A DNA stretch of 64,000 bases from Rubripirellula tenax (GTDB taxonomy: Bacteria; Planctomycetota; Planctomycetia; Pirellulales; Pirellulaceae): contig NZ_SJPW01000007.1 of assembly GCF_007860125.1 (NCBI RefSeq), positions 248,001 to 312,000 of the forward strand. The letters are read 5' to 3'. A model generated the notes under the pieces. The model searched no databases. It saw only the letters and a program-made list of their open reading frames with translations, and had not been told where the DNA came from. The translations under genes and the position numbers were made by a program. This document shows, piece by piece, positions 22,271 through 54,492 of the stretch; positions within the stretch are counted from its first letter, which is position 1; each line of letters begins with the position of its first letter.

Positions 22271-23365
22271 TTAGGTATCGCGGAGCGTCTTGGTGCTGGC
22301 GTTTCGAATTTGTTCCAATCCGACGGGGCCACGCTGGCGTGCTTTTCGTGGCATGGGGAGCCAATTGTTGGCAAAGTACCATTCGGCTGTTTGTCGAATC
22401 CGCGTCGCCATCGGCATTGCCTGTGCAAAACCAGTGTCTCCCATCAAGTTCGCGGCGCTACACGTCCACGAACCTGCGGTTGCTTCGCGGGCTTTGTCCC
22501 AATTCAGGATGTTTGGTCGTCGGCGGATGCGGCCAGCCAAGTCGCTGATCCCGGCGATGCCCCACACAACGGCCTTGGGCATGTGTGCGACAATTGCATT
22601 GTCACGACCGACCGCGCGTCCGATCATGCGACCAAGTTCGCCATAGGTGACCACTTCATCGGCGGCCGCAAAGTAGACGCCTGCCGAAGCGTCGTTGCCG
22701 TGAGAGCCCATCCGCTTGCCCTTTTCGGCGACCAAGGTGAGCGCACGCACCAAGTCCATGACGTCGATCATCGATACTTCGGTGTCCGCAAGGCCGGGCG
22801 AAAAATGAAGGCCCGTTCTGGCGATGCTTTGAAACATCGCGAATCCGTCGGCATCACCTTCGCCCATCACGATTGGCGGGCGTACGATGGTGGTCGGCAC
22901 GTGACCGGCGTAACGGCGTGCGATAATTTCGCCGGCAAGCTTGGTGATCCCGTAGGTCGATACCGGGTGCGGGATATCCGACTCTGTCAACGGACGGCCC
23001 AACCGTGATGGTCCTGCGGCAGCCAACGAGGAAACCAAAACCAGCGTCGTGTTGCCGCCTCGATCGCCGCACGCGCGAGCCACATTGTCAACGCCGCTCT
23101 GATTTACATCTAGAAACGTCGATCGGCGAAACGCTTTCGTGACGGCAGCAAGATGGTAAACGACATCAACGTCATGGACGGCCTTGGACACAGAGTCAAA
23201 ATCGGTCACGTCACCAGTAACGAAGTCCACCTTTGCCGAATCGACCACGCGTCGATTGGACGTTGAACGCACCAAGCAGGTGACGCGATCGCCACGGTCG
23301 ACCAAGTGCTTGACCAATTGTCGACCGATGAACCCCGTCGATCCGGTTACCAATGCATGAGTCAT
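22271..23365 (-). CDS. NAD-dependent epimerase/dehydratase, extended SDR
   Basis: A 364-residue extended short-chain dehydrogenase of the dihydroflavonol-reductase / 3-beta-hydroxysteroid-dehydrogenase-like group. The N-terminal TGSTGFIGRQLVKHL is the GxxGxxG nucleotide-binding motif. Then come VVYHLAAVTKAF, VSSLAAAGPSR (catalytic Ser region), YGITKLAGE (catalytic YxxxK) and RPPIVMGEGD. Substrate unresolved: hopanoid-related HpnA and sugar-nucleotide enzymes share this outline. The ATG at 23365 faces a 428-base divergent region upstream of the stress-protein gene. Confidence 0.87.
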   Translation of the reverse strand: MTHALVTGSTGFIGRQLVKHLVDRGDRVTCLVRSTSNRRVVDSAKVDFVTGDVTDFDSVSKAVHDVDVVYHLAAVTKAFRRSTFLDVNQSGVDNVARACGDRGGNTTLVLVSSLAAAGPSRLGRPLTESDIPHPVSTYGITKLAGEIIARRYAGHVPTTIVRPPIVMGEGDADGFAMFQSIARTGLHFSPGLADTEVSMIDVMDLVRALTLVAEKGKRMGSHGNDASAGVYFAAADEVVTYGELGRMIGRAVGRDNAIVAHMPKAVVWGIAGISDLAGRIRRRPNILNWDKAREATAGSWTCSAANLMGDTGFAQAMPMATRIRQTAEWYFANNWLPMPRKARQRGPVGLEQIRNASTKTLRDT

Positions 23366-23793
23366 GATGCCAGTCCTCGCTGTTCAAATTTTGGTCGACG
23401 CGGCTATCGCGTCAAACCCAATTGCCAATTCTGTTTATTCGATCGTGCGACTTCCCTCGGCATCGCACCTGCTTGAATCATCGGATCCGAGTGGGATCGG
23501 ATTGAATCGTTCAACCCATCTGCGGATGATTCAAGTCGCGCCTCGCCTGCCATCCATCGTGATCACGACAACTGCAACTTCAATGCTTATCATTCCGATG
23601 AACGAACGATCACATGACCGCGAAACAACGGTGCAATCGAATCCTGGTGGGGTTTAGGGGGGGCTTCGCAGGCGAGGTTCACCGGAAACTTGCCGGCAAG
23701 AGCTTTTTTTCAGGATATTCCGCTCGAGCTTGGTATAACAAGTGCAACGATTTTGTCGTGCTATCAACGCACACTTTGATCGAAGGACAACCC
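23366..23793. other. Divergent intergenic region, 428 bp
   Basis: Between the SDR gene (minus) and the universal stress protein gene (plus). It holds a 12-base palindrome CTTGCCGGCAAG at 23689-23700 followed by AGC and seven Ts, and a GG-N10-GC element at 23731-23746, annotated separately. No convincing ORF or known RNA gene is seen; the in-frame extension from 23614 is not family-like. Confidence 0.5.
23731..23746 (+). promoter_or_regulatory. Candidate sigma-54 (-24/-12) promoter upstream of the universal stress protein
   Basis: TGGTATAACAAGTGCA has GG and GC separated by exactly 10 bases, preceded by T and followed by A as in the sigma-54 consensus (TGGCAC-N5-TTGCW). The mismatches are mainly in the inner bases. 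Expected transcription start is near 23757, about 37 bases before the ATG at 23794. A sigma-54 activator gene lies 13 kb downstream at 36936. Confidence 0.4.
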
Positions 23794-36935: not shown

Positions 36936-38429
36936 ATGAACGACACCTCGATCGAACTCTTGCTCGTCGAAGATGAAGACGATTTCCGAGAGACCTGTGC
37001 CCGTTGGATGGAGCGAAAAGGGCACCGCGTCACGGCAGTATCCAACGGTGCCGAAGCACTTGGACTTTGCGAGAGTCGCAGTTTTCAAGTTGCCGTTTTC
37101 GATATGAACATGCCGGGTATGTCGGGCATCGAACTGCTGCAACGTGTCCAACAAGCGGGTTTCGATATGGAGGTCATCATCTTGACGGGACAGGGAACGA
37201 TCGAGTCGGCCGTGTCAGCGATGAAGATGGGTGCGTGTGACTATTTGACGAAACCCTGTTCACTCGGCGATCTTGAACATCACTGCATGCTGGCGCGGAC
37301 GCGCGGTGAATTGCGTCGCGAGAACGTGCAACTCAAAGCGGTCATTTCTCGCAGTCGGCCCAAACTGCCCTTGGTTGGCGAAAGCGGATCGATGCGAGCG
37401 GTCGCGAGAATGATCGAAAAGGTCGCGCCGACGGACCGACCTGTACTGGTTCAAGGCGCCAGCGGTACCGGGAAGGAAGTGGTGGCTCGCGAGATCCAGC
37501 AGCGTAGTCCGCTTCGCGACAAGCCCTTTGTGACGATCAACTGCGCGGCGCTTCCGGAACAGTTGGTCGAAAGTGAACTGTTCGGCCACCAAAAAGGTTC
37601 CTTCACCGGAGCCACGGCAGAGAAGCCTGGGTTGTTTGAAATCGCTGACGGGGGCACGTTGTTCATTGACGAGATCGGCGAATTGCCGCTCACGCTTCAG
37701 CCGAAATTGCTGCGCGTGTTGGAGGATGGATCGATGCGGCGGATCGGTTCGGCCAAAGAGCGAATGGTGCACGTCCGGATCATCGCAGCGACCAATCGCG
37801 ACCTTGCCGCGGAAGTCGAAAAGGGTAACTTTCGCGAAGACCTCTTCTATCGCATCAATGTGCTGCCGCTTCAGCTTCCGTTGCTTAGCGAGCGTGAAGG
37901 AGACATCGACCGCTTGATCGAACACTACCTGCCAAAGCCATGGATCGTTGAACCCGACGTCCGTGCGGTATTGAATCAATATCCCTGGCCTGGGAACATT
38001 CGCCAATTGATCAACGTGATCCAGAGGGCCACGATCCTGGCCGAGGGCACTCGAATCACGATCAACGATCTTCCACCGGAAATTGTGAATTCCGTGAGAA
38101 ACGACTTGACCCTACGATCAACCCGAACCGTCGTCGATCAACCGGGCGAGTTGAAGGGGCTGGGCACAAACACGTTCCAGGCGAACCCGTTACCTGCGAA
38201 TACAACGTCGACTCGTACCACCGCTTCGACGGCGAGTCCTGATGGCGGAGCGGCCACGCTGGATGACATCGCCAAGGCACACGTGCTCGATGTTCTTGCG
38301 TCAGAAAATGGCAACAAGGCGCGAGCCGCACGGAGACTGGGAATCCATCGTCGCAAACTCTATCGGTTGCTTGAGCGATTCCAAGAATCGGATGTTGTCG
38401 AAGACTCGCGTGACGAATCAAACGTCTGA
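36936..38429 (+). CDS. NtrC-family sigma-54-dependent response regulator
   Basis: A 497-residue activator. The receiver domain (1-120) has the acceptor Asp56 in [13 protein letters not shown]. The AAA+ domain (about 145-385) has Walker A GASGTGKE at 174-181, GSFTGA at 221-226 (usual form GAFTGA, the sigma-54 contact loop), and Walker [14 protein letters not shown]. The C-terminal Fis-type helix-turn-helix is [21 protein letters not shown]. Expected partner: the FixL-like kinase upstream. The ATG at 36936 is chosen; the upstream frame to 36858 is not receiver-like. Its last 12 bases overlap the convergent winged-helix gene. Confidence 0.93.
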
Positions 38430-38861
38430 TTTGCGATTTTCGTCCGCATGGTTTTTTCCGATCAGGTCCAGCAGTTCGCCGATCTGGCGATGTGATTCGA
38501 TTGGGTGGCGTAACGATTTATCGACAAGAACTTCATAGCGATTTTGTCGACCCACCTTTTCGCGTCGGATGAAACCTTCTTCTTCTAAATCCTGCACGAT
38601 CCGCTGAACCGCTCGTTCGGTAATACGAACACGCGCCGCAACCTCTCTGAGAACCATTTCTGGATCGGCGTGTAAAACGACCAAAACGTGAGCGTGATTG
38701 GTCAGAAACGTCCAACGATGCGAGGCCTCTTTGGGCTTCGGTGCGTCGGATCTCGAGCTCTTGGGTTCCGCCGCCTGGGAGGAACGACCGGCGGACGTGG
38801 TCTTCGATGCGCGAGTGGCCAAAACGCGAAATCCATGATTTTGCGGGTTCGGGCACCGCAA
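38418..38861 (-). CDS. Winged-helix transcriptional regulator, divergent from dabB-dabA
   Basis: A 147-residue protein. Residues ~50-115 form a winged helix-turn-helix ([55 protein letters not shown]), ArsR/MarR-like. The tail reads [17 protein letters not shown]. The N-terminal ~45 residues are basic and probably disordered; the start (TTG 38861) is uncertain. No metal-binding cysteine pair is visible. It faces the dab operon across 222 bases that contain a perfect 7-2-7 palindrome, its likely operator. Ends convergently inside the last codons of the sigma-54 activator gene. Confidence 0.75.
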
Positions 38862-39015
38862 CCGCTGCGAAATCTGCCCGTCGCCTCCACTCTAGCACAC
38901 ATCGTGCGAAAAAACATTCGTGAAACAGCGGACGTAAAAACTCGTATTTTGGCCGATTTCCGCGTTTTCGTGGCAATGAATCCTCATGACGGGCATCAAA
39001 ACACACGAAGAACAA

Positions 39016-39042
39016 TTGACGACAACTTTGTCGTGTTATATG
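39016..39042 (+). promoter_or_regulatory. Probable dab promoter with embedded palindromic operator
   Basis: TTGACG at 39016-39021 and TATATG at 39037-39042 resemble -35 and -10 boxes, with a short 15-base spacer. Between and over them lies the perfect inverted repeat ACGACAA (39019-39025), CT, TTGTCGT (39028-39034). A weaker dyad TCGTG/CACGA follows at 39045-39057. A bound repressor would block this promoter. Confidence 0.55.
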
Positions 39043-39083
39043 TTTCGTGTCACACGATTCACATTTCTTAAAGGTTGCATTCG

Positions 39084-40703
39084 ATGAACGGCGCGCTACT
39101 TTGGATGATCACGCTACCCGCGGCCGGGATGGTCAGTTTTCTGCTGATTCCGTCGGCGGTGGCTAATCGACACGTGCATTCGATCCGGTCGGTCGCCACC
39201 GGCTTAGCGGCGGCTCAGTTCCTGATCTCGGTCGCCGCAATGCTGTTTTGGCTTGCCTCCGGTGGCGCCGCCCAGCAAGTCAGCCTGTTCCCGCCCGGCG
39301 GGTCGTCGGCGGTCGCAGTGAGCCTGAGGTACGACGGCGTTTCAGCACCGATGCTGGCACTGGTCAGCTTCATTGGCTGGGTGATCTGTCGCTACTCGAT
39401 CCGTTACCTCGACGGCGAAGCGACGCAGGGTCGGTATTTTCGTTGGACCGCCGGCACGATCGGCGCGGTGACGTGGATGGTGATCTCGGGCAACCTGTTG
39501 ATGTTCTTTGCGGCCTGGGTTGCGACCAGCATGGGTCTGCATCATTTGCTGTTGCACTATCCCGATCGACCGCTAGCAGTCCGAGCGGCTTGGAAAAAAT
39601 TTGCGTTCAGCCGCCTGGGCGACGCTGCTTTGATTGGCGCGATCATTATTGTCTATCGCCAATTCGGAACGTTTGAGTTCGATCAACTGTTCGCAGCGGT
39701 CGAAGGTCTTCAGGCCAGCGGCCAAGCTGATGCGACTGGCTTGAATGCAACCCACTTGATCGGTTGGCTGATCATGTTCGGCGCAGTCACCAAGTCGGCC
39801 CAGTTGCCATTTCATTCTTGGTTGCCATTGACGATGGAAACTCCGACGCCCGTGTCTGCTCTGATGCATGCGGGGATCGTCAATGCGGGCGGCTACCTGA
39901 TCATCCGGACCAGCCCGTTGGTCGCGTCGGCTCCCATGGCGATGACCGTTTTGGCAATCATCGGCGCCACAACCACTTGCTTCGCAGCGACCGTCATGCT
40001 GACCCAAAACAGCATCAAGCGATCGCTTGCCTATTCAACGATCGCACAAATGGGATTCATGATGTTGCAGTGCGGCCTCGGCGCATTTTCCGCAGCGATG
40101 CTTCACATTCTGGCTCACTCGCTGTACAAGGCCCATGCGTTCCTTGCCAGCGGTAGCGTCATCGCCAATCGGACGGCGACGGACGTTCCCAATCAGATCC
40201 GACAAGAGACGCGATCGGCAACAAACGATTCGGGAGCTCTGGCATCCAAATTACTGTGTGTGGCCGCTGCGGCGATTGCCATCGCCATCATGTCTGCATC
40301 TATGTACGCATTCGGAGTTTCGCCGTCAGCCAAACCGGGCGGCTACGTGATGGGTTTCACGTTGGCGATCGCGTTAACGTTCTGGTTGGTCCAAACCTTT
40401 GCTACCCGAAAGGCTGGCTCGATTCTGATCGGGATCGCAACAACGATTGGGTTGTCCACTCTGTATTCGGCGACGTTCTTCGCAACAGACCGTTTGGTTT
40501 CGCCATTTGTGCCGACCGTCGACTCGGCACCCTCCTGGGTCGTGGTTGTGATGGTGGCGATCACATTTGTGGGAATGTTCTATCTCAGCCACTCCGGTGC
40601 AAGCCGATCAATCGGCGGTTGGCGCTCGTCGTTGTACGTCCACGCAACCAATGGATTTTATGTCGATGCGTTCATCCGGCGAATCGTCGGATTCAGAGCT
40701 TAA
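39084..40703 (+). CDS. dabB: DabB: proton-channel subunit of the DAB inorganic carbon pump
   Basis: A 539-residue NuoL/MrpA-like membrane protein with about 14 helices. Antiporter-like motifs include FAAWVATSMGLHHLLLHYPDRP, a lysine-containing TKSAQLPFHSWLPLTMETPTPVSALMHAG and HILAHSLYKAHAFLASGSV. In DAB systems DabB conducts cations to drive hydration of CO2 by DabA. There are no other complex I genes nearby, and dabA follows after 44 bases, so this is DabB rather than NuoL. ATG 39084 with AAAGG about 9 bases upstream; a TTG at 39075 is less likely. Confidence 0.92.
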   Translation: MNGALLWMITLPAAGMVSFLLIPSAVANRHVHSIRSVATGLAAAQFLISVAAMLFWLASGGAAQQVSLFPPGGSSAVAVSLRYDGVSAPMLALVSFIGWVICRYSIRYLDGEATQGRYFRWTAGTIGAVTWMVISGNLLMFFAAWVATSMGLHHLLLHYPDRPLAVRAAWKKFAFSRLGDAALIGAIIIVYRQFGTFEFDQLFAAVEGLQASGQADATGLNATHLIGWLIMFGAVTKSAQLPFHSWLPLTMETPTPVSALMHAGIVNAGGYLIIRTSPLVASAPMAMTVLAIIGATTTCFAATVMLTQNSIKRSLAYSTIAQMGFMMLQCGLGAFSAAMLHILAHSLYKAHAFLASGSVIANRTATDVPNQIRQETRSATNDSGALASKLLCVAAAAIAIAIMSASMYAFGVSPSAKPGGYVMGFTLAIALTFWLVQTFATRKAGSILIGIATTIGLSTLYSATFFATDRLVSPFVPTVDSAPSWVVVVMVAITFVGMFYLSHSGASRSIGGWRSSLYVHATNGFYVDAFIRRIVGFRA

Positions 40704-40747: not shown

Positions 40748-43339
40748 ATGTCCCCCACTTTATCGATCCCCTCGGTCGCTGACCCTAGTCTCGCAGCCTC
40801 ATCCGCACATTCGGCGCCTTGGTCGGATGGCGGGGCACGGATCCGCGAAATTCTTGAACAAGTCTGCAGTTCCATGACAGCCGTTTGGCCGTTGAAGGAC
40901 TATGTCGCGGTCAACCCGCTGGGAGGCTTTACCGAACATCGTTTTCTCGACGCTCGAAAGAAACTGCGAGTCTATTCGGACTGCGAGACGCTGATGCCGC
41001 TTGCGTATTACGCCAACGAACTCAAGCAAGGACGATTGACGGTCGAAGCAATCGAACTAGCGATAAAGGAACTTGCAACCGATGAATCGATCGCAAACGC
41101 GAACCTAACTTCGGAATCGATGGTAAAGCAACTCCGTTCATTTGATCCGTTGCCGTTGTTGGTTCAGCCGACGGGTACGTCAACCAACAAAGATCGGTCG
41201 CTTCGAACCATCTCGGAATTCGTCGACGGTCAAAAGGGGACGGATTGGACAACGACCATCCGCGAGGAAGTATCAAAACACTGCGCCGCTCACTACGATG
41301 ACGGTCAAGCGGCATGGCAAAGCCCATGGAAAGATCTGCCGCTGTATCAGGCATGGTTATCCGCAGCATCACGAGATCGCAAAATTGAGATCCTGGGACT
41401 GCAAGGATTTCGAAAATTTGTGACCGCGATGCCAGCGACGCCGGAGGAATCGATCGCGATGTGCCTGAACTCGCTCGGCGTTCCATCGCCGTTGTGGGAA
41501 GGCTTTCTGAGTTGTCAGATGCAATCCGTGTCAGGGTGGGCTGCGTGGGCAAAGTTCCAAGTTGACATGGCAAGTCGAAAGGATGAGCTGTCGACCGACT
41601 TGATTGCATTGATCGCGATGCGACTTGCCTATGACGTTGTCCTTGCCAATCAAGCGACGGTTTCCGTGCCGTGGGACGCGATGGCGGCGGGCGATCAAGA
41701 TCAAGTCGACGTGAGTTCGTCAGGGGCATGGTCGAACCGAGACGATATTGCCCTTCGACACCTGTTACTTCGCGCTTGCGAAATCGAATTTCGCGAGCGA
41801 CTTCTCCTTCGGTTGAACGTTTTGCCCGATGTACCGGACACCGCAGTTCCGTCGTCGACGGTTGCCCAAATGGTATTCTGTATCGATGTTCGGTCCGAGC
41901 GGATGCGACGCCACCTGGAAGCGACCAGCAACCGTGAAATCGAGACATTTGGCTTTGCGGGCTTCTTCGGCTTGCCGATCGAGTTTGTTCCGATCGGATC
42001 CTCATCGGGGAACGCGCAGGTACCGCTTTTGTTGTCCCCGAAATTCCAGGTTCACGAAGGACTGCGGGGCTCTGGTGAACAAGCAGCGTTGGACTCGATT
42101 GCTCACCGAACCACCATTCGCGGTTTCCGTCAGGCGTGGAAGCGATTCAGCACTTCGGCGGTCGGGTGTTTCGCGGCCGTTGAAACAGCAGGGTTGCTGA
42201 ATGGTTTCTCACTTTTGAAACGCACGCTTCGTTGGGATCTTGGCTTGTCCGACGGCCACCGTTTTGACGGAGTTGCGAAGGCGGACCGCGAACATTTGGG
42301 GCCGATGCTGTGTGGGCTCAACGCACAGGGCATCACAACCACTCACCAAGCCGATATGGCGGAAGGCGTCTTGCGAGGAATCGGCCTGACCAAAAACTTC
42401 GCTCCGCTTGTCGTCTTCTGTGGCCACGGCAGCCGAACGGACAACAATCCATTGGCCGCCGGACTTGACTGTGGCGCGTGTGGCGGGCATACCGGTGAAT
42501 CGAACGCGCGATTCGCCGCGATGCTGTTGAACCAACCGTTCATTCGAACGAATTTGGCCGAGCGAGGTATCGAGATTCCCGACGGCACCCGTTTCGTTGC
42601 CGCGTTGCATAACACGACCAACGACGAGATCGCATTCTTTGAAACCGACGAGCTGCCGGAGGAATCGCTTGGCGACTTCCAGCAACTGGCGAAGATGACA
42701 CGATCGGCATCCGAGCGAAATCGGGCCGAACGTCTTCCCATCATCGCTTCGAAATCAGTCGCGGACCTGATGGACCGCTGTACGGATTGGTCGGAAGTTC
42801 GTCCCGAATGGGGTTTGGCGGGAAATGCGGCATTCATCGTCGGCTCCCGACGAATGACCGAGTCGACGGACTTGGACGGTCGAACTTTCCTTCACACGTA
42901 TGATCATAAAGACGATCCATCGGGCTCGATTTTGGAATCGATCATGACGGCACCCATGGTGGTGGCTCACCTGATCAACATGCAATATTACGCATCAACG
43001 GTGGACAATCTTCATTTCGGCAGCGGGACGAAAACGGTTCACAACGTGGTCGGGCGGTTCGGGCTGTTTTCAGGCAATGGAGGTGACTTGATGACCGGAT
43101 TGCCTTGGCAGTCACTGCACACCGGCACGTCGTTTCAACACCATCCGCTGCGGTTGCTTTCGGTGATTGCCGCGCCCCGAGCGTCCATAGAGCGGGTCCT
43201 GGCAAAACATGCCGGGGTCGCCCAATTGTTGACAAACCAATGGCTACATTTGGTCGCGATTGATGAAAGTCAGCTTTTCCGCTACACCGACTCTAGTACC
43301 TGGGAACCGATCACGTCAGTTTCCGCCCTGTCGAACTGA
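40748..43339 (+). CDS. dabA: DabA (DUF2309): carbonic-anhydrase-like inorganic carbon pump subunit
   Basis: An 863-residue DUF2309 protein. The zinc-site residues are all present with the spacing of Halothiobacillus DabA: Cys378 and Asp380 in FCIDVRSERM, His560 in FCGHGSRTDNNP and Cys575 in GLDCGACGGHTGE. DabA hydrates CO2 to bicarbonate unidirectionally, energised through DabB. No RuBisCO or carboxysome gene is seen in the window, so an anaplerotic role (for example supplying bicarbonate to the PEP carboxylase at 51715) is an inference. Followed by the exporter genes after 8 bases. Confidence 0.95.
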   Translation: MSPTLSIPSVADPSLAASSAHSAPWSDGGARIREILEQVCSSMTAVWPLKDYVAVNPLGGFTEHRFLDARKKLRVYSDCETLMPLAYYANELKQGRLTVEAIELAIKELATDESIANANLTSESMVKQLRSFDPLPLLVQPTGTSTNKDRSLRTISEFVDGQKGTDWTTTIREEVSKHCAAHYDDGQAAWQSPWKDLPLYQAWLSAASRDRKIEILGLQGFRKFVTAMPATPEESIAMCLNSLGVPSPLWEGFLSCQMQSVSGWAAWAKFQVDMASRKDELSTDLIALIAMRLAYDVVLANQATVSVPWDAMAAGDQDQVDVSSSGAWSNRDDIALRHLLLRACEIEFRERLLLRLNVLPDVPDTAVPSSTVAQMVFCIDVRSERMRRHLEATSNREIETFGFAGFFGLPIEFVPIGSSSGNAQVPLLLSPKFQVHEGLRGSGEQAALDSIAHRTTIRGFRQAWKRFSTSAVGCFAAVETAGLLNGFSLLKRTLRWDLGLSDGHRFDGVAKADREHLGPMLCGLNAQGITTTHQADMAEGVLRGIGLTKNFAPLVVFCGHGSRTDNNPLAAGLDCGACGGHTGESNARFAAMLLNQPFIRTNLAERGIEIPDGTRFVAALHNTTNDEIAFFETDELPEESLGDFQQLAKMTRSASERNRAERLPIIASKSVADLMDRCTDWSEVRPEWGLAGNAAFIVGSRRMTESTDLDGRTFLHTYDHKDDPSGSILESIMTAPMVVAHLINMQYYASTVDNLHFGSGTKTVHNVVGRFGLFSGNGGDLMTGLPWQSLHTGTSFQHHPLRLLSVIAAPRASIERVLAKHAGVAQLLTNQWLHLVAIDESQLFRYTDSSTWEPITSVSALSN

Positions 43340-43347
43340 AAATATAG

Positions 43348-45573
43348 ATGACTGCAGACTCAGAATCCAACGACCAGCCTTCGGCGAACCCGTCCTCGGC
43401 TGACGAAGCGACCTACACCGAAGAAGTGCTCTACGGTGCGATCACTCGCATCGCCTCGGCACTTGGGTTTGGGATCGACCGTAGCACCGTGGACTTGTAC
43501 GAAGCCAAGTTGTTGGTGCATCCCGACCGCGAAATCCCCGCATCGTGCGGCGGGTTGGTCGAGGGTTGCAAACAGGCCGGGATCTATTTGAAGCTGATCG
43601 AATTGTCGGACGTCGACGAAGTCTACGACCTGATTGGCGAAGGATTTCCCGTCGTTTCGGCAAACCAGGATGGATCGATCGCGGTGCTGGAGAAGCTTGC
43701 CGGTCGCAAGATCGATATAAGTATCGTGGGTGGTCCGGTTGCGCCTCGCGCGATCGGAAAGTCTCGCCTCCGACAGATGCTTTTCGGTTCGGAGCCGCAG
43801 GCCGTGTTTGTCGCGAAGAAAGAATTGGAATGCGACTCGTTCGCCGCAGGCGGTCATGCCGGAAAAGGCCACGGTGGCGGTGGGCATAGCGGCGGTGGGC
43901 ATGGTGGCGGGGGCCACGGTGATTCGGCCCATGGCGCGCACCATCACGACCATCCCAAACCGCTGCGCCGATTCATCGGGATGCTGCAGTTGGACTTACG
44001 AGACATTCTGACCATCTCGCTGTTCGCTTTTGTCGCTGGGGGCCTCTCGCTCGCAACGCCGCTTGCCATCGAATCGATGGTCAACGTTGTCAGCTGGGGC
44101 ACCTATGTGCAGCCGCTGTTGGTGATCGCGATGATGTTATTGGCGTGCTTGGGGATCAGTGGCTTTCTAAAGGTCTTGCAAACCGTGCTTGTGGAAACGA
44201 TTCAGCGACGACAATTGGTTCGGATCGTTGGCGATCTGGCGCACCGGTTCCCGCGCGCAAACCGCGAATCGCTTGCCGGCGAATACCCTCGCGAGTTGGC
44301 CAACCGAGTCTTCGACATCATGACGATCCAGAAAGCAACCGCGGTGCTGTTGATGGACGGTGTCTCGATCATCTTGACGACCGTTTTGGGATTGGTATTG
44401 CTGGCGTTCTATCACCCGTTTTTATTGGGATTCGACATCGTGTTGGTGATTAGCATGATTTCGATCACCTGGATTCTGGGACGCGGCGGCGTTCGGACCG
44501 CGATTGATGAATCGATCGTGAAGTATCGGATCGCGCATTGGTTACAGGATGTGATTGCGTCGCCGTCGGCATTCAAGATCAACGGCGGCGAAGGTCTGGC
44601 CGTTTCTCGCGCCAACCGATTGGTGTCGCTCTATCTGGAACAGCGGCGCAAACAGTTTCGTGTGGTTCTTCGTCAAGTCACGTTTGCCATTGGGTTGCAA
44701 GTCATTGCGTCGACGGCCGTGCTCGGGTTGGGCGGATGGTTGGTCATCCAAGGCCAATTGACGCTCGGACAATTGGTGGCCAGCGAGTTGGTCGTCACCG
44801 TGGTTGTGGGCGCTTTTGCCAAAGCGGGCAAGTCGCTTGAGAAGTTCTATGACTTGATGGCCGGAATCGACAAGGTCGGTCACTTGCTGGACGTCCCGGT
44901 TGATCCTCGATCGTCGATCGGAGTGAGTCCCGATGGTCCGGCCAGTGTCCGTTGGGACGATCTTGAATTTCATTTCGCGACGGGAACATCAAAGATTTCA
45001 GCGACTGAAATTTCGGCGGGTTCGCGTGTCGCGATCGTTGGAGATGACGTCAGTGGAAAGTCTTCGCTGGCAAAATCTTTGGTGGGACTGGTCGCACCAA
45101 ATCACGGTGTCGCCGAAGTGGCAGGATGGGACGCGGGTGACGCCGGTCGAGCCAGCGCCGGTCAAATGATTGCCTATGCCGGTGACGTCGAAGTCTTCCA
45201 TTCGACATTGGCTGAAAATATCGACTTGGGTCGATCCGGGATTGGGCAAAATCGAGTGCGGGAGGTACTGCATTTGGTCGGCCTTTGGGAGGATGTCTTG
45301 CGACTTCCCGATGGCATTCAAACCAAGTTGCAATCCAATGCCTATCCGCTCAGCCGCACCCAGTCTGAGAAATTGATGGTGGCAAGAGCGATCAGTAGCC
45401 ATCCAAAACTATTGGTCATTGACGGGATTCTCGATCACCTTGACGCAGACTCTCGCGACTCGCTTTTCCAAGTCCTGGCCGATCCGAATGCGCCGTGGAC
45501 GCTCGTCATCGTGACCAATGATGACGCGTTGGCTTCTAAGTGCGACCAACAAATATCCGTCCGAACAAATTGA
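43348..45573 (+). CDS. ABC exporter with His/Gly-rich segment and degenerate ATPase (type I secretion-like)
   Basis: A 741-residue HlyB-like half transporter. Residues ~25-165 resemble a non-catalytic C39-like domain. Residues ~168-204 are a His/Gly-rich run with ten histidines in GGGH-type repeats. The membrane domain spans about 215-510. In the ATPase domain Walker A is kept (GDDVSGKSS, from 565), but the Q-loop Gln is Gly612, the signature is LSRTQ (668-672), the Walker B Glu is Gly693 and the switch His is Asn724. ATP binding without normal hydrolysis is predicted. Starts eight bases after dabA and precedes HlyD-like and TolC-like genes. Confidence 0.85.
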   Translation: MTADSESNDQPSANPSSADEATYTEEVLYGAITRIASALGFGIDRSTVDLYEAKLLVHPDREIPASCGGLVEGCKQAGIYLKLIELSDVDEVYDLIGEGFPVVSANQDGSIAVLEKLAGRKIDISIVGGPVAPRAIGKSRLRQMLFGSEPQAVFVAKKELECDSFAAGGHAGKGHGGGGHSGGGHGGGGHGDSAHGAHHHDHPKPLRRFIGMLQLDLRDILTISLFAFVAGGLSLATPLAIESMVNVVSWGTYVQPLLVIAMMLLACLGISGFLKVLQTVLVETIQRRQLVRIVGDLAHRFPRANRESLAGEYPRELANRVFDIMTIQKATAVLLMDGVSIILTTVLGLVLLAFYHPFLLGFDIVLVISMISITWILGRGGVRTAIDESIVKYRIAHWLQDVIASPSAFKINGGEGLAVSRANRLVSLYLEQRRKQFRVVLRQVTFAIGLQVIASTAVLGLGGWLVIQGQLTLGQLVASELVVTVVVGAFAKAGKSLEKFYDLMAGIDKVGHLLDVPVDPRSSIGVSPDGPASVRWDDLEFHFATGTSKISATEISAGSRVAIVGDDVSGKSSLAKSLVGLVAPNHGVAEVAGWDAGDAGRASAGQMIAYAGDVEVFHSTLAENIDLGRSGIGQNRVREVLHLVGLWEDVLRLPDGIQTKLQSNAYPLSRTQSEKLMVARAISSHPKLLVIDGILDHLDADSRDSLFQVLADPNAPWTLVIVTNDDALASKCDQQISVRTN

Positions 45574-45594: not shown

Positions 45595-46944
45595 ATGCCG
45601 AATTCAACCGAATTGGTTTCCGACTTTCCTGCGTTGCAATTGGTGCGAACCGGACGCTTCATACGAACGTTGGGGCGTTTGACGTTTTTCCTTTTGACGA
45701 TCTCGATCGTCGCGATGGTTTTCGCGCCGTGGCGGCAAACAGCGCGTGGCACGGGATCCGTCGTGGCCATCGATCCCCAGGACCGCCCCCAACCGGTGAT
45801 GAGCCCTACGAAGGGAGTGATCCGATTCGTGCGACCCGACTTGCGCGAAGGCAGCTATGTCGAGAAAGATGAACTGCTGATGCGATTAGCGCCCTTTGCT
45901 GAAGGCGGCGTATTGCAAATCGATACGCAGATTTTCGCAATCGACCAGAAACGGGAAGCAGCCGAACTTAGCCTTTCCGTCGCCGAGCAAGCGGAGCAAT
46001 TGCAGCAAGCCAGCGGACTCAACCTGACCGAATCACTGAACCAGGACTATCGCGCCGCGAATCAGAAATGGGAACAGGCGAAGAACGAAGTGCAGGCGAT
46101 GCAAGCTGAATTGAATGATAAACGCAACCAACTTCGCATCGCCGAAGCCGTTGCCAGCAAAGGCTTGATTCCGCAGGAAGAGTTATTCTCCAAAAGACAG
46201 GCTGTTGAAGGCCAGCAAGCCAAGGTGTTCAAAGCAGAAAGTGGCGCCGAGGAAGCGTACGCGGCCCTGAAGTCGAAAGAGGAAGAGATCGAATCGAAAA
46301 AGCGTGACATCGACATCAAAAACCGCGAAGCCAATCAAAAGGTTCTCGAATCCATCCAAAAGTTAAGAACGATCGAGAAAGAAGCGATCGATTTGGAAAC
46401 CAAACGCGACGAATTCGATCGACTGGACATTACCGCGCCCCGGTCCGGCTTCATCCAGCAGTGGAGCGGATTGGTGGGTAGCGACGCGATCAAAGAGGGA
46501 GATCAGTTGTTCACCATCGTGCCGGACACGGACGAATTGGGCGTGGAAATGAAAGTGACCGGCAACGACATGCCGCTGATTCATGAAGGCGATCGTGTAC
46601 GACTGCAGTTTGAGGGATGGCCGGCCGTCCAGTTCGTCGGATGGCCTTCGGTGGCAATCGGAACATTTGGCGGTAAAGTCAACCGAGTCTTCCCAACCGA
46701 CGACGGGAAGGGTAATTTCAGAGTGTTGATTGTTCCAGAGGAACCGAATGGGCAAGAGAATGCATGGCCGGATGACCGATACCTTCGTCAGGGAGTGCGT
46801 GCCAACGGTTGGGTGCTCTTAAAGCAAGTTCCGCTCGGTTACGAAATATGGCGTCAACTCAATGGTTTTCCGCCGGTCATCGCCAACGACGAACCTGGAA
46901 AATCGAAAGACAAAGGCGGAAAAGTAAAGCTGCCCAAAGGGTAG
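45595..46944 (+). CDS. HlyD-family periplasmic adaptor (membrane fusion protein)
   Basis: A 449-residue protein with one N-terminal membrane span (FFLLTISIVAMVFAPW, about 30-46). A split lipoyl/barrel region comes next (PVMSPTKGVIRFVRPDLREGSYV and ITAPRSGFIQQWSGLVGSDAIKEGDQLF), surrounding a long coiled coil of about residues 115-275, and then a beta-barrel domain. It would link the ABC protein 21 bases upstream to the outer-membrane TolC-like protein that starts two or three bases after its stop. The very end is Lys/Gly-rich. Confidence 0.9.
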   Translation: MPNSTELVSDFPALQLVRTGRFIRTLGRLTFFLLTISIVAMVFAPWRQTARGTGSVVAIDPQDRPQPVMSPTKGVIRFVRPDLREGSYVEKDELLMRLAPFAEGGVLQIDTQIFAIDQKREAAELSLSVAEQAEQLQQASGLNLTESLNQDYRAANQKWEQAKNEVQAMQAELNDKRNQLRIAEAVASKGLIPQEELFSKRQAVEGQQAKVFKAESGAEEAYAALKSKEEEIESKKRDIDIKNREANQKVLESIQKLRTIEKEAIDLETKRDEFDRLDITAPRSGFIQQWSGLVGSDAIKEGDQLFTIVPDTDELGVEMKVTGNDMPLIHEGDRVRLQFEGWPAVQFVGWPSVAIGTFGGKVNRVFPTDDGKGNFRVLIVPEEPNGQENAWPDDRYLRQGVRANGWVLLKQVPLGYEIWRQLNGFPPVIANDEPGKSKDKGGKVKLPKG

Positions 46945-46946
46945 TT

Positions 46947-48728
46947 TTGCATCGGCTTTGGATGGCGCGTTTGGTCGCCGGGTTCGTCACCACAATCGCG
47001 ACATATTCGCCTTCCGCCGTTGTCGCACAGACGCCCCCAGAGCAACCAGCCTGGGTTTCGTTTCCGGCACTGTTCGTCGCACAGCAGGAAGTCGCTGAAC
47101 CGATTGTGCCTGAGGGCGACGCAGCGGTTCCCCAGATTCCGAATGACCCAGAATCTGCGGCGGTTTTGGATAGCGAGCCGACGTCGTCACCGCGATACAC
47201 GCCGGATCCAGATGCCAGTTCATCAGGCGAAGCCGCGGTCACGCGAGGCGAAGGCGATCTAAGGTTGGCAGACGTCATCGCCAGCCTGTACCGCGACTAC
47301 CCATCGATAGCCGCCGCACGCCAACAGAATGCGTTGGCGAACGGCTTATTGGTCGAAGCCTATGGCGCCTTCGACACCAAACTGCAGGGCTACTCGCTGA
47401 ACGAACCGGTTGGGTTCTACCAGAACTATCGACATGGCATTGGCGTGGCCCGTGATACGTGGTGGGGAGGCTACGTTTCGGCTGGCTATCAAATCGGACG
47501 TGGTGAATTCGAGCCTTGGTATCAGGAACGTGATACCAACGATGGTGGCGAATTCAAAGTCGCGATCGTGACGCCGCTGCTGCAAGGACGGGCCATCGAC
47601 CCGCGACGTGTCGCCGTCTTTCAAGCATCGATCGATCGCCAGATGGCCGAGCCTATCGTTCAGCAATCGATCCTGGACGCTTCTCGCGACGCCGTCAACG
47701 CCTATTGGCAATGGGTTGCCGTCGGTGCGATGGTCGAAGCGCAGCGCGAACTCTTGAAGTTGGCAGAACTGCGAGGCGAACAATTCGAAGTCGGCTTCGA
47801 GGCGGGCAAGTTTGCCGAAATCGATCTGATTCTTAACCGGCAATTGATCGCCGAGCGACGCGCGAAGGTACTGGAAACGGAACAGAAGTTTCGTTCCACA
47901 GCATTCAAGTTGTCGTTGTACTTGCGAAACGAAACCGGCCAACCGTTGGTGCCACCGGATAGTTGGTTGCCGATGCACTTTCCGGTCATCGAATTGCCCG
48001 AGCTGAACGATTTCGAATCCGACTTGGCCGCGGCGCTGGCACGTCGCCCCGAGCCGCGACTGCTGCAGCTAGAGATTCGACAGATCCAATTTGATCGTCA
48101 ATTGGCTTGCAATCAAATGCTGCCGCGACTGGATTTTGTTGCCGATGGTTCGCAAGACATGGGAGCGGCCGCATCCTCAAAGAGAGACAAAGGCGACTTT
48201 GAATTGGTCATCGGCATTCAAGGCGAAGTACCGATTCAGCGGCGCAAAGCACGCGGGAAGATTCAATCGACAACCGCCAAAATCTTTCAATTGAACGAGA
48301 AGCTTCGGCTTCAGCAGAACCGAATTGGCGCCGAACTGCAAACGGCTTACAACGCGCTAGTGTTGTCTTCCCAAGTCGTCGAACAGGCCGAAATTTCACT
48401 GCGGGCCGCCTTCGATTCGCTGGAAAGGTACCGGTTTGCTTTTGAGCGTGGAAAGATCGACTTGATCTACTTGAACCTGCTGGAATCGAAAGCTAACGAA
48501 ACAGAAATCAAGCTGGTCGAAGCGCAACAGCGCTGGTTCGCAGCCCTGGCCGACATGCAGCTTGCGCTCGGTCTCGATCCTCTGGATCAGGCGATGATTG
48601 TGTCACAGTTGCCCGCATCAAGTCGGCCCGGCCCACGCAATCTGCCGCCGGCCAAGGACCTAAAACTTGATCAGTTCGAAGAAGACTGGAAGATGCACAC
48701 CCAGCCTCGCGGAGCGGACGCCGAGTGA
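46947..48728 (+). CDS. TolC-family outer membrane channel protein
   Basis: About 593 residues: a signal peptide (LVAGFVTTIATYSPSAVVAQ), a Pro/Glu-rich linker to about residue 95, then the TolC repeat with long helices (LRLADVIASLYRDYPSIAAARQQNALANGLL, RDAVNAYWQWVAVGAM, LFPLSQ-type strand regions, and FERGKIDLIYLNLLESKANETEIKLVEAQQRWFAALADMQLALG). It completes a tripartite envelope-spanning exporter with the two preceding genes. The TTG at 46947 sits about 6 bases after AAAGGG and is favoured; ATG 46962 is the alternative. Confidence 0.88.
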   Translation: MHRLWMARLVAGFVTTIATYSPSAVVAQTPPEQPAWVSFPALFVAQQEVAEPIVPEGDAAVPQIPNDPESAAVLDSEPTSSPRYTPDPDASSSGEAAVTRGEGDLRLADVIASLYRDYPSIAAARQQNALANGLLVEAYGAFDTKLQGYSLNEPVGFYQNYRHGIGVARDTWWGGYVSAGYQIGRGEFEPWYQERDTNDGGEFKVAIVTPLLQGRAIDPRRVAVFQASIDRQMAEPIVQQSILDASRDAVNAYWQWVAVGAMVEAQRELLKLAELRGEQFEVGFEAGKFAEIDLILNRQLIAERRAKVLETEQKFRSTAFKLSLYLRNETGQPLVPPDSWLPMHFPVIELPELNDFESDLAAALARRPEPRLLQLEIRQIQFDRQLACNQMLPRLDFVADGSQDMGAAASSKRDKGDFELVIGIQGEVPIQRRKARGKIQSTTAKIFQLNEKLRLQQNRIGAELQTAYNALVLSSQVVEQAEISLRAAFDSLERYRFAFERGKIDLIYLNLLESKANETEIKLVEAQQRWFAALADMQLALGLDPLDQAMIVSQLPASSRPGPRNLPPAKDLKLDQFEEDWKMHTQPRGADAE

Positions 48729-49926: not shown

Positions 49927-51456
49927 TCATCGCAAGAACATTTGGTAGACGGGATTTTGCGTTTCTTCGACGCATCGATAACCAATTCGACCGAGAAACT
50001 CTTCCAGCACGTCTTGCCCACTTCGCCCCATCTGTACGCCAACAAGAATGCGCCCGAAATCGGCGCCCTGATTTCGATAGTGAAACAGGCTGATGTTCCA
50101 ATTCGGTGGCATGCAGGAAAGGAATCGCATCAAGGCACCCGGTCGCTCCGGAAACTCGAAACGGAACAGACGCTCGGTATCGGTTTCCGCCGTTAACGGG
50201 CTTCGACCGCCGACCATGTATCGCAGATGTTCTTTCGACAATTCATCGTCGACCAAGTCGATCGATTCGAAACCGGCATCGGCGAGCGTCTTTTGGATCG
50301 TACGGGCTTCATCGCGTCCGTCGGTCACCAATCCGACCAACACATGAGCTTCGCCGTGACTAGAAAAGCGATAATTGAACTCCGTGACACTGCGATCGCC
50401 TATCGCTTGGCAGAGATCTTTGAAACTTCCGCGCTCTTCGGGGATCGTTACCGCCAACAACGCCTCGCGATCTTCGCCGACTTCGGCCCTTTCAGCAACA
50501 AATCGCAACCGGTCGAAGTTCATGTTCGCGCCGCAGGTGATCGCGATCAGGCTTTCGTCTTTCAGGTTGTGAAGGGCGGCGTACTGTTTCAGCCCTGCGA
50601 TGCCGATCGCTCCGGCCGGTTCAAGGATGCTGCGTGTGTCTTCGAAGGCGTCTTTGATCGCTGCGCAAACGTCGTCGGTGTCGACGACAATAAAATCGTC
50701 GACCAATTCGCGAGTCAATCGAAACGTCTCTTCGCCGACAACCTTCACGGCGGTTCCGTCGGAAAACAATCCAACTTCGCCAAGCGAAACGCGTATTCCC
50801 GCTTTTACGGAACGGATCATCGCATCAGAGTCTGTCATTTGGACACCGATGATGCGAATATCGGGGCGGACGGCTTTGACGTAAGCGGCAACACCCGATA
50901 TCAATCCGCCGCCGCCGATCGCAACGAACAGAGCATGTATCGGATGTTGATGCTGACGCAGGATCTCCATCCCGATCGTTCCTTGGCCTGCGATCACATC
51001 GGGATCGTCAAACGGGTGAACGAAAACCAATTGGTCGCGCTGGGCCAGGACCATCGCGTGGCCATGGGCCTCGGAGTAGCTCTCGCCGAAAAAAATGACG
51101 TCACCGCCGAGTGCTTTCACCGCATCGGACTTCAATTTCGGCGTCGTGACGGGCATCACGATGGTTGCGCGGCATTCCAACCGCGCTGCGGCCAGCGCGA
51201 CCCCCTGGGCATGATTGCCAGCCGAAGCGCACACGACACCGCGCGCCCTCTGATCGGGCGACAACCGAATCATCTTGTTGTACGCCCCGCGCAGCTTGAA
51301 ACTGAAGACAGGCTGAGTGTCCTCGCGTTTCAGCCAGACGCGATTGCCCAGTCTTGAAGAAAGCTTTGGAGCAATCTCGAGCGCAGACTCAATGGCGACG
51401 TCGTATACCGGAGCTGTGAGGATCCGTTGCAAATAGTCGAGAAGTGTGTTTTCCAT
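49927..51456 (-). CDS. ilvA: Biosynthetic threonine ammonia-lyase
   Basis: A 509-residue PLP enzyme converting threonine to 2-oxobutyrate, the first step of isoleucine synthesis. Lys54 in FSFKLRGAYNKM is the Schiff-base lysine; VCASAGNHAQGVALAA and AIGGGGLISGVAAY are the substrate- and phosphate-binding loops. Two C-terminal ACT-like regulatory regions (about 325-500) mark the feedback-regulated biosynthetic form. ATG 51456 chosen; the GTG at 51474 is possible. Divergent from ppc. Confidence 0.95.
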   Translation of the reverse strand: MENTLLDYLQRILTAPVYDVAIESALEIAPKLSSRLGNRVWLKREDTQPVFSFKLRGAYNKMIRLSPDQRARGVVCASAGNHAQGVALAAARLECRATIVMPVTTPKLKSDAVKALGGDVIFFGESYSEAHGHAMVLAQRDQLVFVHPFDDPDVIAGQGTIGMEILRQHQHPIHALFVAIGGGGLISGVAAYVKAVRPDIRIIGVQMTDSDAMIRSVKAGIRVSLGEVGLFSDGTAVKVVGEETFRLTRELVDDFIVVDTDDVCAAIKDAFEDTRSILEPAGAIGIAGLKQYAALHNLKDESLIAITCGANMNFDRLRFVAERAEVGEDREALLAVTIPEERGSFKDLCQAIGDRSVTEFNYRFSSHGEAHVLVGLVTDGRDEARTIQKTLADAGFESIDLVDDELSKEHLRYMVGGRSPLTAETDTERLFRFEFPERPGALMRFLSCMPPNWNISLFHYRNQGADFGRILVGVQMGRSGQDVLEEFLGRIGYRCVEETQNPVYQMFLR

Positions 51457-51632
51457 CACTGCTATTTTCGCCACCCGCGATGCTTCCGCAATGGTGATCC
51501 GTGCGGAAAACCGCCGATCTTAGTCGACGAAACTCGTACCGTCTGGAAATCACGTCTCGAAGTCGGGGGTGTCAGGTGCCGCCAGCGGCGTTTGTGGTCA
51601 AAACAGACGACGCTAGTAATGCGCCCGACTTG

Positions 51633-51653
51633 CCTTTTGGCCGCGTCAAAAGG
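51633..51653. promoter_or_regulatory. Inverted repeat between ilvA and ppc
   Basis: CCTTTTG (51633-51639) and CAAAAGG (51647-51653) are perfect arms around GCCGCGT, 62 bases upstream of the ppc start in a 258-base divergent region. It could be an operator or a leader hairpin. No regulator gene is adjacent. Confidence 0.35.
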
Positions 51654-51714
51654 AAACTGCAGTTCCGTTCGCCCATGCAAGCTACATCTTCCCGCCACAA
51701 TCTTGGATAGTGAA

Positions 51715-54492
51715 ATGCCAACCGAGTCGAAATCGTCGGAACGCCTACGTGATGAAATCGCCATGTTGGGGCATCTGCTGGGCGAGACGATTCGCGAGGT
51801 CGCGGGCGATAATGCACTTTACATCGTGGAAGATTTGCGTCGGTTGGCGTGGGACAATCGCACCGGCCAGCCCGCCGCAGCGAGTCGGCTGAGCGGATCG
51901 ATCGCGTCGTTGAAGCCGCCCCAACTTCGCGTGGTCATTCGAGCCTTCAGTATATTCTTGGATTTGTTAAACCTGTCCGAGGACCGCCAACGCGTCCGAG
52001 TGCTTCGGGCACGAGAGCAAAATACATTGGCGAGCGAACGGGGCGAAACGATCGCCAGCGCGATGATGCAATTGAAAGCAGCCGGTCGGACGGAAGGCGA
52101 GATCCAGCACCTGTTGGATCAACTGCACGTCGAATTGGTGTTCACGGCGCACCCCACCGAAGCGAAGCGACGAAGCGTCAGAAGCAAGTTGAAGACAATT
52201 CGCGAACTGTTGAGCGAACATGACGTCGAAACACGGCCGGACAAAATCGCTCGTATTGAACGGTTGATTCAAACGGAGCTGGCAAAGCTGTGGCAGACCA
52301 ACTTCATTCGCCCCTGGCGACCGTCGGTGATTCAAGAGGTCCAGCGCGCGCTTTCGATCAAGCCCATCCTGTGGGAAGTCGTGCCGCAAAACTTGAGCGA
52401 GCTTCGTCAGTCGCTTGCCGAGGCCTACCCCGGTCACAAATTCAAAATCAAACCGTGCGTCACGTATGGTTCGTGGATCGGCGGCGACCGCGATGGGCAC
52501 CCGGGTGTTACGGCGGAGGTTACCGAGCAAACATTTCAGTGGCTAAGAGAAGCCGCGTTCGAATTTCATTCGTCCACCCATCATGATTTGTATGACTCGT
52601 TGAGTTTGTCGGATTTGCAAACGACTTGGGGACATGATTTGGGCCAACGGATCACCGAGGCGGTGGTGCGATGGCCGGAAGTGGAGGCGCGCATTTCAAA
52701 AATCCCACCCGATGAACTGTGTCGTCGTTGGCTATCCGTCATGAAATGGCGACTCGACAAGACGGCAAAGATCGCACTGGGCGGCGAGCCCGTCTTTGGC
52801 AGCTACGCGGATCCAGACGAGATGATCGAAGACGTCGACGCGTTGCTTGAATCGGTCACCAAGTACCCGGGCGGTGATCTATTGGCGGAAGAAGTCAACG
52901 TTTGGCGAGATCAGATCGCGGCGTTCGGTTTCCATTTGACGTGTTTAGATGTGCGCCAAGATGCGAGACAGTATCGCGGTGTCATGAACGAAATCCTTGC
53001 CGCATGCGGATTGGGCGCCAGCGCCGAGGCCGTGGATGCTCTCGACGAAAAACAGCGTCAGAAACTGTTGATCGAATCGCTCGATCGAGACTTGGTTTTT
53101 GGCAAAGATCCGATGGATGCGGCGACGCTGTCGCCGGAAGCTCGTGATACGTTGGAATTGTTTCGCGTTTTGCACCAAGTGATGCGATCCTATGGTCAAC
53201 GTGCGATCGGCGAACACGTCATCAGCATGACGCAGACGCCCAGCGACGTGCTGACGGTCCTTTGGTTGTGGCGTCAAACAGGAAAGAATTTTTCCGATTG
53301 CGACGAGTACAAAACGCGATTGCCGATATCGCCATTGTTCGAAACGATCGAAGACCTGCAGAACGGACCTGCGATTTTGAAGGACCTGTTTGCCATTCCC
53401 GAATACCGCGATCACATCACGGCCCAGGGAAATCAACAACCGGTTATGCTGGGGTATTCCGACAGCACGAAAGACGGCGGCTATCTGTCGGCATGTTGGT
53501 CCCTGTACCGGGCACAGCAGCAGTTGCAGTGCGTTGCGTCAGAGCTGGGCGTTGAGCTGACGTTTTTCCATGGTCGCGGAGGATCGCTGGGCCGAGGGGG
53601 CGGACCGACCGCGCGAGCGATTCGGTCGTTGCCCGTCGGCACGTTCCGCGGTGCGTTGCGATTGACCGAGCAAGGCGAAGTGTTGGCGGATCGTTACGAC
53701 GACAAGCACATCGCCCATCGACACCTCGAACAAGTCGTTTGGTCGTCATTGCTGGCCGGCGGCGATCCGCCGACGGCTGACCCGAACGAGTGGACGGACA
53801 TGCTAGACGGGATGGCGAAACAATCGTTCGCGCATTACCGCAAGTTGATCGAACAGCCCGATTTCGTTCGCTTCTTTCGGCTGGCAACTCCGGTTGATGA
53901 AGTCGAACAACTGCCGATCGGCTCGCGTCCGTCGCGACGACGCGGGGGTGCCAGCCTATCGGATTTGCGAGCGATTCCGTGGGTGTTCTCTTGGACGCAG
54001 TGTCGATGCTTGATTCCCGCCTGGTACGGATTGGGCACCGCAACGGCGACGGTGCTGGAAACGCCCGGTGCTGTTGAGCAGTTGCAAGCGATGTACAAGC
54101 AATGGCCCTTCTTTCAAGCAACCATCGACAACGCAGAGCTGGCAATCGCGAAATCCGACATGGAGATTTCAGGATACTATGCGTCGTTGGCGGACCAGAG
54201 CGAGAACCTGAAGACGATCAGTGAAATGATCAAAGACGAACACGCGCGGTCGCTGGGTGCGATTCTGCACATCACCGGGCGCGAGTCTTTGCTGGCGGGA
54301 ACGCCTTGGTTGAAGGAATCGATCCGAGTTCGAAATCGTTACATCGATCCGCTGAACTTGATCCAAGTCGAACTTCTCAGCCGGTTGCGAGCTGGATCAC
54401 AGGACCCAGACGACGAGAGCCAAAAAGAACTGCAACACCTGGCAAGGCTTTCGATCAACGGTCTCGCGTCGGGGATGCGGACGAGTGGCTAG
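51715..54492 (+). CDS. ppc: Phosphoenolpyruvate carboxylase
   Basis: A 925-residue enzyme that carboxylates PEP with bicarbonate to oxaloacetate, the main anaplerotic reaction. Diagnostic motifs: VFTAHPTEAKRRS with His146, GSWIGGDRDGHPGVT, LGYSDSTKDGGYLSACW and FFHGRGGSLGRGGGP with His619, the catalytic glycine-rich loop. The C-terminus ends SINGLASGMRTSG; canonical enzymes end in NG-type termini for allosteric binding, and NGLASGMRTSG is close. ATG 51715 chosen over the long upstream in-frame extension. Bicarbonate dependence links it to DabAB 8 kb upstream (inference). Confidence 0.95.
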   Translation: MPTESKSSERLRDEIAMLGHLLGETIREVAGDNALYIVEDLRRLAWDNRTGQPAAASRLSGSIASLKPPQLRVVIRAFSIFLDLLNLSEDRQRVRVLRAREQNTLASERGETIASAMMQLKAAGRTEGEIQHLLDQLHVELVFTAHPTEAKRRSVRSKLKTIRELLSEHDVETRPDKIARIERLIQTELAKLWQTNFIRPWRPSVIQEVQRALSIKPILWEVVPQNLSELRQSLAEAYPGHKFKIKPCVTYGSWIGGDRDGHPGVTAEVTEQTFQWLREAAFEFHSSTHHDLYDSLSLSDLQTTWGHDLGQRITEAVVRWPEVEARISKIPPDELCRRWLSVMKWRLDKTAKIALGGEPVFGSYADPDEMIEDVDALLESVTKYPGGDLLAEEVNVWRDQIAAFGFHLTCLDVRQDARQYRGVMNEILAACGLGASAEAVDALDEKQRQKLLIESLDRDLVFGKDPMDAATLSPEARDTLELFRVLHQVMRSYGQRAIGEHVISMTQTPSDVLTVLWLWRQTGKNFSDCDEYKTRLPISPLFETIEDLQNGPAILKDLFAIPEYRDHITAQGNQQPVMLGYSDSTKDGGYLSACWSLYRAQQQLQCVASELGVELTFFHGRGGSLGRGGGPTARAIRSLPVGTFRGALRLTEQGEVLADRYDDKHIAHRHLEQVVWSSLLAGGDPPTADPNEWTDMLDGMAKQSFAHYRKLIEQPDFVRFFRLATPVDEVEQLPIGSRPSRRRGGASLSDLRAIPWVFSWTQCRCLIPAWYGLGTATATVLETPGAVEQLQAMYKQWPFFQATIDNAELAIAKSDMEISGYYASLADQSENLKTISEMIKDEHARSLGAILHITGRESLLAGTPWLKESIRVRNRYIDPLNLIQVELLSRLRAGSQDPDDESQKELQHLARLSINGLASGMRTSG

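Follow-up and report, generated by a model that had tools for sequence, protein, structure and literature searches.

We wondered what a protein built like an ABC exporter might do once the residues for ATP hydrolysis, the defining trait of ABC exporters, appear to be gone. The case lies in the window, a stretch of 64,000 nucleotides from Rubripirellula tenax, where the gene in question (abc) has the following surroundings:

38418..38861, minus strand: MarR-like winged-helix regulator (Pfam MarR_2/HTH_24), single copy in the window's genome
39014..39039, no strand assigned: predicted operator AATTGACGACAACTTTGTCGTGTTAT between regulator and dabB, 25.5 bits, the window's best site
39075..40703, plus strand: DabB, NuoL-like proton-channel subunit (Pfam Proton_antipo_M)
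40748..43339, plus strand: DabA, inorganic-carbon accumulation subunit (Pfam PF10070, 2.9e-246)
43348..45573, plus strand: pseudo-ABC exporter, 741 aa (open reading frame; Pfam ABC_membrane and ABC_tran above cut-off)
45595..46944, plus strand: HlyD-type periplasmic adaptor (Pfam HlyD_3, HlyD_D23), conserved neighbour
46809..48728, plus strand: TolC-type outer-membrane factor (Pfam OEP, 1.8e-31), true start probably after 46944, conserved neighbour
51427..54492, plus strand: PEP carboxylase (PEPC), 2.7 kb past tolC; as a seed it matched PEPC loci, and the family was named via a homologue

The gene order is dabB-dabA-abc-hlyD-tolC, with abc third. Because the spacings are close (44 bp from dabB to dabA, 8 bp from the dabA stop to abc, 21 bp from abc to hlyD), these first four genes likely share one transcript. 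An earlier note had read the ATPase domain as having lost almost all catalytic residues, so that both sites of a homodimer would be dead, and had suggested a regulated gate or a pseudo-transporter, perhaps driven by DabB or by proton motive force.

The protein itself is laid out as follows, all on the plus strand:

residues ~23-165: C39-like N-domain (domain layout)
43843-43956, residues 166-203: His/Gly-rich linker (domain layout)
43960..44907, residues 205-520: transmembrane domain (TMD) with family-specific polar residues
44938..45570, residues 531-741: degenerate nucleotide-binding domain (NBD; translation and alignments)
45040..45066, residues 565-573: Walker A GDDVSGKSS (G565-DDVS-G-K571-S-S), intact (translation, alignment)
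45163..45198, residues 606-617: Q-loop region, one residue short, Gln absent (alignments)
45349..45363, L668-Q672: signature LSRTQ in place of LSGGQ (alignments)
45406..45426: Walker B KLLVIDG, Glu replaced by Gly693 (alignments; Gly in 60 of 104 family members)
45517..45519: switch position Asn724 (T723-N724), not His (alignments)

Pfam placed ABC_membrane at residues 223-489 and a weak ABC_tran match at 554-692, and in a genome-wide search with PF00005 the window NBD ranked low (51.7 bits versus up to 130 for others in the same genome). An AF2 model of the 741-aa protein reached a pLDDT of 78, and its top Foldseek matches were HlyB (8dck) and PCAT1, full length over ~735 columns. A family member free of all motifs (L277) was modelled with a pLDDT of 75 and a modest pTM of 0.52 and matched the PCAT1 core across 533 columns; with global TM-scores of ~0.5, both comparisons speak for the fold class and not for its details. 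The models thereby support retention of an HlyB-like exporter fold, TMD and NBD being joined in a single chain. A sequence search of the PDB with the TMD alone returned no match. The linker between N-domain and TMD reads GHGGGGHSGGGHGG...HHHDH in the window protein; it varies in length, many orthologues have just a short His-containing stretch, and metal binding by it is possible.

The region singled out in the earlier note, 44950-45573, agrees with the NBD (residues ~535-741), and translation and alignments bore out every residue it had named, from the intact Walker A through Gly612 and LSRTQ to Gly693 and Asn724. The Q-loop reads IAYAG612DVEVF against the canonical VEQDVFLF, one residue fewer and without Gln, and Walker B reads LLVID692-G693. 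When solved P-gp chains were aligned, 'LLLDE' fell against 'lllidG' and LSGGQ against 'LsesQ', with a one-residue gap at the Q-loop; these chains and canonical exporters rule out a shifted alignment that would rescue Gln, Glu or His. Both sites of a homodimer would be without catalytic Glu, switch His, Q-loop Gln and signature glycines, in line with the dead-site claim. The window protein thus lacks the competent NBD (Walker B Glu, switch His, LSGGQ, Q-loop) of a type I secretion system (T1SS) member, and ATP hydrolysis is probably not used.

The motif loss is, on the alignments, a trait of the whole family of pseudo-ABC proteins and not an error. Close planctomycete homologues, the comparison proposed in the earlier note, carry the same substitutions, and a sequencing error, which it had allowed for, is contradicted by the open frame and by the same losses in nearly all homologues. 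Sixty relatives were searched and, besides the gene itself, yielded 27 matches at ~40-64% identity, far above other exporters. Among 104 non-redundant members (<80% identity) from Planctomycetota, Acidobacteriota and Gammaproteobacteria, LSGGQ was found in none, LSxGQ in nine, the Walker B Glu in 12, the switch His in 12 and all three together in five; a Q-loop Gln is conceivable in at most about five. Because the GK[S/T] of Walker A is kept in 71 of the 104, ATP binding is still possible, as is some hydrolysis at a slow rate. The less degenerate forms with LSxGQ, Glu and His group in Gemmataceae/Isosphaeraceae, a cluster that could be active, and one Pirellula lineage (L040) keeps DE and H; for these, unlike the family at large, 'almost all lost' goes too far. 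At the other extreme, divergent gammaproteobacterial members (L272-L279) have no motif left, Walker A included, and keep the TM5-6 signature GG.LV..GQLSLGQLVAAE.

The family stands well apart from ordinary exporters. In profile searches of six genomes its members scored E <= 1e-223 versus >= 5e-47 for every other ABC protein, and the tree placed them in a single clade against ordinary exporters with a support of 100, the inner root being uncertain and the order of motif loss not settled by the tree. Members occur in 44 of 392 sampled Planctomycetota genomes and in 11 of 274 genomes of the class to which a Methylobacter member belongs; named records with the family come from Acidobacteria and Methylobacter. 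Some members are without the N-domain. One Methylobacter MAG contig carries two identical inverted operon copies (G449:C124:6313-8376 and 21669-23732), likely an assembly palindrome. Literature searches of open-licence papers found no description of the family.

Selection has treated the two domains differently. Mean pairwise identity within the family is 0.56 for the TMD and 0.39 for the NBD, versus 0.41 and 0.54 in ordinary exporters from related genomes, giving NBD/TMD ratios of 0.69 and 1.33; the NBD is the less conserved domain in 7717 of 7727 family pairs. Across 34 close pairs the median dN/dS is 0.043 for the TMD and 0.114 for the NBD. Purifying selection thus acts on both domains; it is weaker on the NBD than on the TMD but still present there. 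Family-specific TMD residues include E283, R292, N319-R320, K329, H356, E388, K392, Q475, E480 and D502. One canonical peptidase-ABC was compared and differs at the H356 and E480 positions, which, going by the usual exporter topology and the model helices, would lie near the periplasmic side. The label 'pseudo-transporter' undersells such strong TMD conservation.

We then considered what surrounds the gene elsewhere. The order ABC-hlyD-tolC is held in nearly every locus long enough to be judged, and in the window, as seen from the genes alone, HlyD-type and TolC-type partners are encoded adjacent to abc as in a T1SS. Several of the 149 loci are duplicates or near relatives, so the neighbour counts are not independent: winged-helix regulator 25, NhaR-like LysR 19, dabA 10, PEPC 6, purK 4, beta-carbonic anhydrase (beta-CA) 2 and SulP-type 2. 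PEPC is thus a recurrent neighbour beyond the window. Clustering of the neighbours brought out no recognised gene for a secreted substrate. Beside one pseudo-ABC operon lies a gene for a fusion of SulP transporter and beta-carbonic anhydrase domain (L097:2682-4973, minus strand). The NhaR-like LysR gene (NCBIfam NF008284, above cut-off) stands beside the ABC operon or regulator-dabBA at loci including L032, L041, L043, L055, L126, L136, L218 and L219, in many cases in genomes without a winged-helix gene at the ABC locus.

The winged-helix regulator is a single-copy gene in nearly every genome that has it and in most loci examined adjoins ABC, dabB, sbtA (PF05982), SulP-CA, beta-CA, PEPC or purK; about ten sampled regulator loci have no recognised carbon gene within 1.5 kb. 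PEPC is a bicarbonate consumer. PurK uses bicarbonate as well (PMC10880623). Upstream of the regulator lies a palindrome, approximately AATACACGACA-N4-TGTCGTCAATT, that scores >12 bits in 39 of 45 divergent loci and whose word counts exceed those of shuffles. The operator was found upstream of ABC in 11 of 139 cases versus 1 of 1480 shuffles, with the motif learned from the regulator upstreams themselves, ABC-divergent regions included. ABC promoters far from any regulator are the independent tests, and four of these scored 27.7 (L037), 22.7 (L069), 21.9 (L175) and 18.7 bits (L098). In one 7.2-Mb genome (G032) the best site of all is at the ABC promoter (1 mismatch), with the dabB promoter tied second (2 mismatches) 0.7 Mb away; in another (G128), 3.1 Mb separate dab from the ABC site. 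ABC or regulator/dab likewise carries the site with the fewest mismatches in G034, G013, G049, G002 and G357, and the window operator is one of two such sites in its whole genome; 3-mismatch matches are at background level by a reversed-pattern control.

In a subset of genomes, the window's included, the ABC operon and dabBA thus have a regulator neighbour and predicted operator in common, which suggests, from sequence, control of the pseudo-ABC operon together with CO2/bicarbonate-uptake genes. Across Planctomycetota, the MarR-like regulator and its palindromic operator seem to tag a set of bicarbonate genes as one regulon (dabBA, sbtA, sulP-CA, CA, PEPC, purK), of which we found no description in searches of open-licence papers. 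Loci of this kind are the window (38418-38861, minus strand, and 39014-39039), L242, L232, L233, L235, L236, L230 and L231. A second operator-like site in the window's genome (G000:C4:328443-328468, L314; 2 mismatches) has no recognised carbon gene within 2.5 kb, and one regulator homologue (L228:1888-2931, minus strand) lies beside genes for cytochrome bd subunit II and an HlyD-like protein.

Linkage to dab itself exceeded expectation under a simple chance model in which shared descent was treated by collapse to genus only: six genomes versus 0.17 expected, or three after the collapse (P ~7e-4). For regulator linkage the figures were 8 of 19 versus 0.06 expected. An independent case of dab linkage is a gammaproteobacterial locus (L287), where dabAB points away from a LysR gene and ABC-hlyD-tolC; no dab was seen at the remaining gammaproteobacterial loci. 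DabA occurs in two forms, with open frames of ~840-930 aa and ~1000-1130 aa (for example G000:C16:14866-17655 and G349:C1:2454076-2456925), and the short form is the one in ABC-operon linkages within 10 kb. The carbon link is not universal, because DabA went unmatched in 22 of 67 ABC-bearing genomes, some of them incomplete, and at most loci the start of ABC is without a nearby operator; many of these loci have an NhaR-like regulator or none. That the ABC system is an obligate accessory of DabAB, which is described as a PMF-driven CO2-hydrating complex (PMC13144422), is ruled out by those 22 genomes. Of the proposed dependence on DabB, a regulatory and genomic tie to DabAB stands, but a direct drive is not supported, given the same genomes and the absence of dab next door at most ABC loci. 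Proton motive force is a possible drive.

What, then, might the protein do? We favour, at somewhat better than even confidence, an HlyB-like protein that hydrolyses no ATP and forms the inner-membrane part of a tripartite conduit belonging to a CO2/bicarbonate regulon, with nucleotide as its gate or an ion gradient as its drive. The ATPase of a tripartite HlyB-like/HlyD/TolC system would have been retired, with the exporter fold and the strongly constrained TMD retained. By its predicted regulation, the ABC operon would be switched with DabAB upon a change in CO2 or bicarbonate supply; the membrane domain would serve as a transporter or conduit that nucleotide gates or an ion gradient drives, and the ion or solute that it moved would support bicarbonate or pH balance. 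An engineered exporter without its NBD, LmrA-MD, performs H+-Na+-Cl- symport (PMC2704374), and transport without an NBD is therefore possible in principle. At normal membrane potential bicarbonate would leak out of the cell through a passive pore, so coupling to an ion gradient would be needed if bicarbonate were the cargo. Carried further, this leads to a tentative proposal that we would place well short of even: an envelope-spanning tripartite transporter of ABC fold that hydrolyses no ATP, is driven by an ion gradient via residues of the E480/H356 type, moves bicarbonate or a counter-ion and is an unrecognised part of CO2/bicarbonate acquisition.

Could the system still be ATP-driven, a slow ATPase with other acids in place of the lost base, secreting peptides or proteins under CO2 limitation? 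We think this unlikely: the frequent Walker A, purifying selection on the NBD, D696 (95% conserved) and the HlyD and TolC partners, which type I secretion also has, would all fit, but LSGGQ, Q-loop, Glu and His are lost jointly and drift is faster in the NBD than in the TMD. As a replacement base D696 is weakened, since it persists in gammaproteobacterial members without Walker A, where it replaces nothing. We rate just as low a CFTR-like channel whose pore opens on nucleotide binding without pumping. The degenerate site of CFTR holds ATP for minutes. Degenerate sites in other type I exporters likewise bind and do not hydrolyse ATP (PMC7756269), and the window protein has its Walker A; CFTR, however, closes by hydrolysis at a second, intact site, the alignments offer no such hydrolysis-competent site here, the signature motif needed for ATP sandwiching is lost too, and members without Walker A are conserved as well.

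A scaffold or regulator that holds HlyD/TolC or senses something without transport seems less probable again. The many invariant polar residues and very low dN/dS of the TMD do not suit it, nor would a bare scaffold need a full TolC conduit, although the NBD is pseudoenzyme-like and ABC proteins such as SUR work as regulators. That the protein is half of a heterodimer whose intact ABC partner is encoded elsewhere is very improbable. Heterodimers in which one site is degenerate are frequent among exporters (PMC7756269), but such a partner is made very unlikely by the absence of an adjacent half in 149 loci, save a few unrelated ABC matches, and by the weak next-best matches in six genomes, which start near TM5-6. 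A decaying pseudogene or sequencing error we regard as negligible: many motif residues are missing, yet the frame is open, orthologues share the losses, selection is purifying and the operon is conserved, which already refutes it.

If the non-hydrolysing conduit that we favour holds, a family that is conserved, has two apparently dead sites and comes with a full HlyD/TolC conduit would offer a direct test of physiological ABC-TMD transport without hydrolysis, for which the arguments have hitherto come mostly from truncated or mutant proteins, LmrA-MD among them. Through the dabBA link, the inorganic-carbon toolkit of heterotrophic bacteria would gain a component that spans the envelope; a review of the dissolved inorganic carbon (DIC) toolkit does not mention HlyD (PMC10880623). 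The regulator and operator would give a simple handle on the bicarbonate regulon.

Among known systems, type I secretion ABCs (HlyB, LapB/LssB type) and PCAT1 share the full-length fold including a C39-like N-domain, and the former come with HlyD and TolC partner genes. Unlike them, the family has no catalytic ATPase motifs, carries its own TMD residues, sits in a carbon-regulon context with no substrate gene seen, is without the N-domain in some members and falls far under the curated T1SS family cut-offs (best NCBIfam match TIGR03375, 130 bits versus 693; TIGR01846, 122 versus 726). TM287/288, TmrAB, TAP and BmrCD, heterodimeric exporters each with a single degenerate site, likewise have non-canonical ATP sites without the Walker B Glu and often with a changed H-loop; unlike these, the pseudo-ABC proteins have lost signature and Q-loop too, belong to a tripartite system and had no intact partner half-transporter in the 149 loci and six genomes. 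LmrA and LmrA-MD give a precedent for an ABC membrane domain that works without NBD catalysis (PMC2704374); LmrA, unlike the pseudo-ABC proteins, is a normal ATPase and not tripartite, so the analogy is functional only. DabAB, finally, is the CO2-hydrating complex itself (PMC13144422) and ABC-hlyD-tolC an unrelated protein system, which in some genomes has operon, regulator and predicted operator in common with it.
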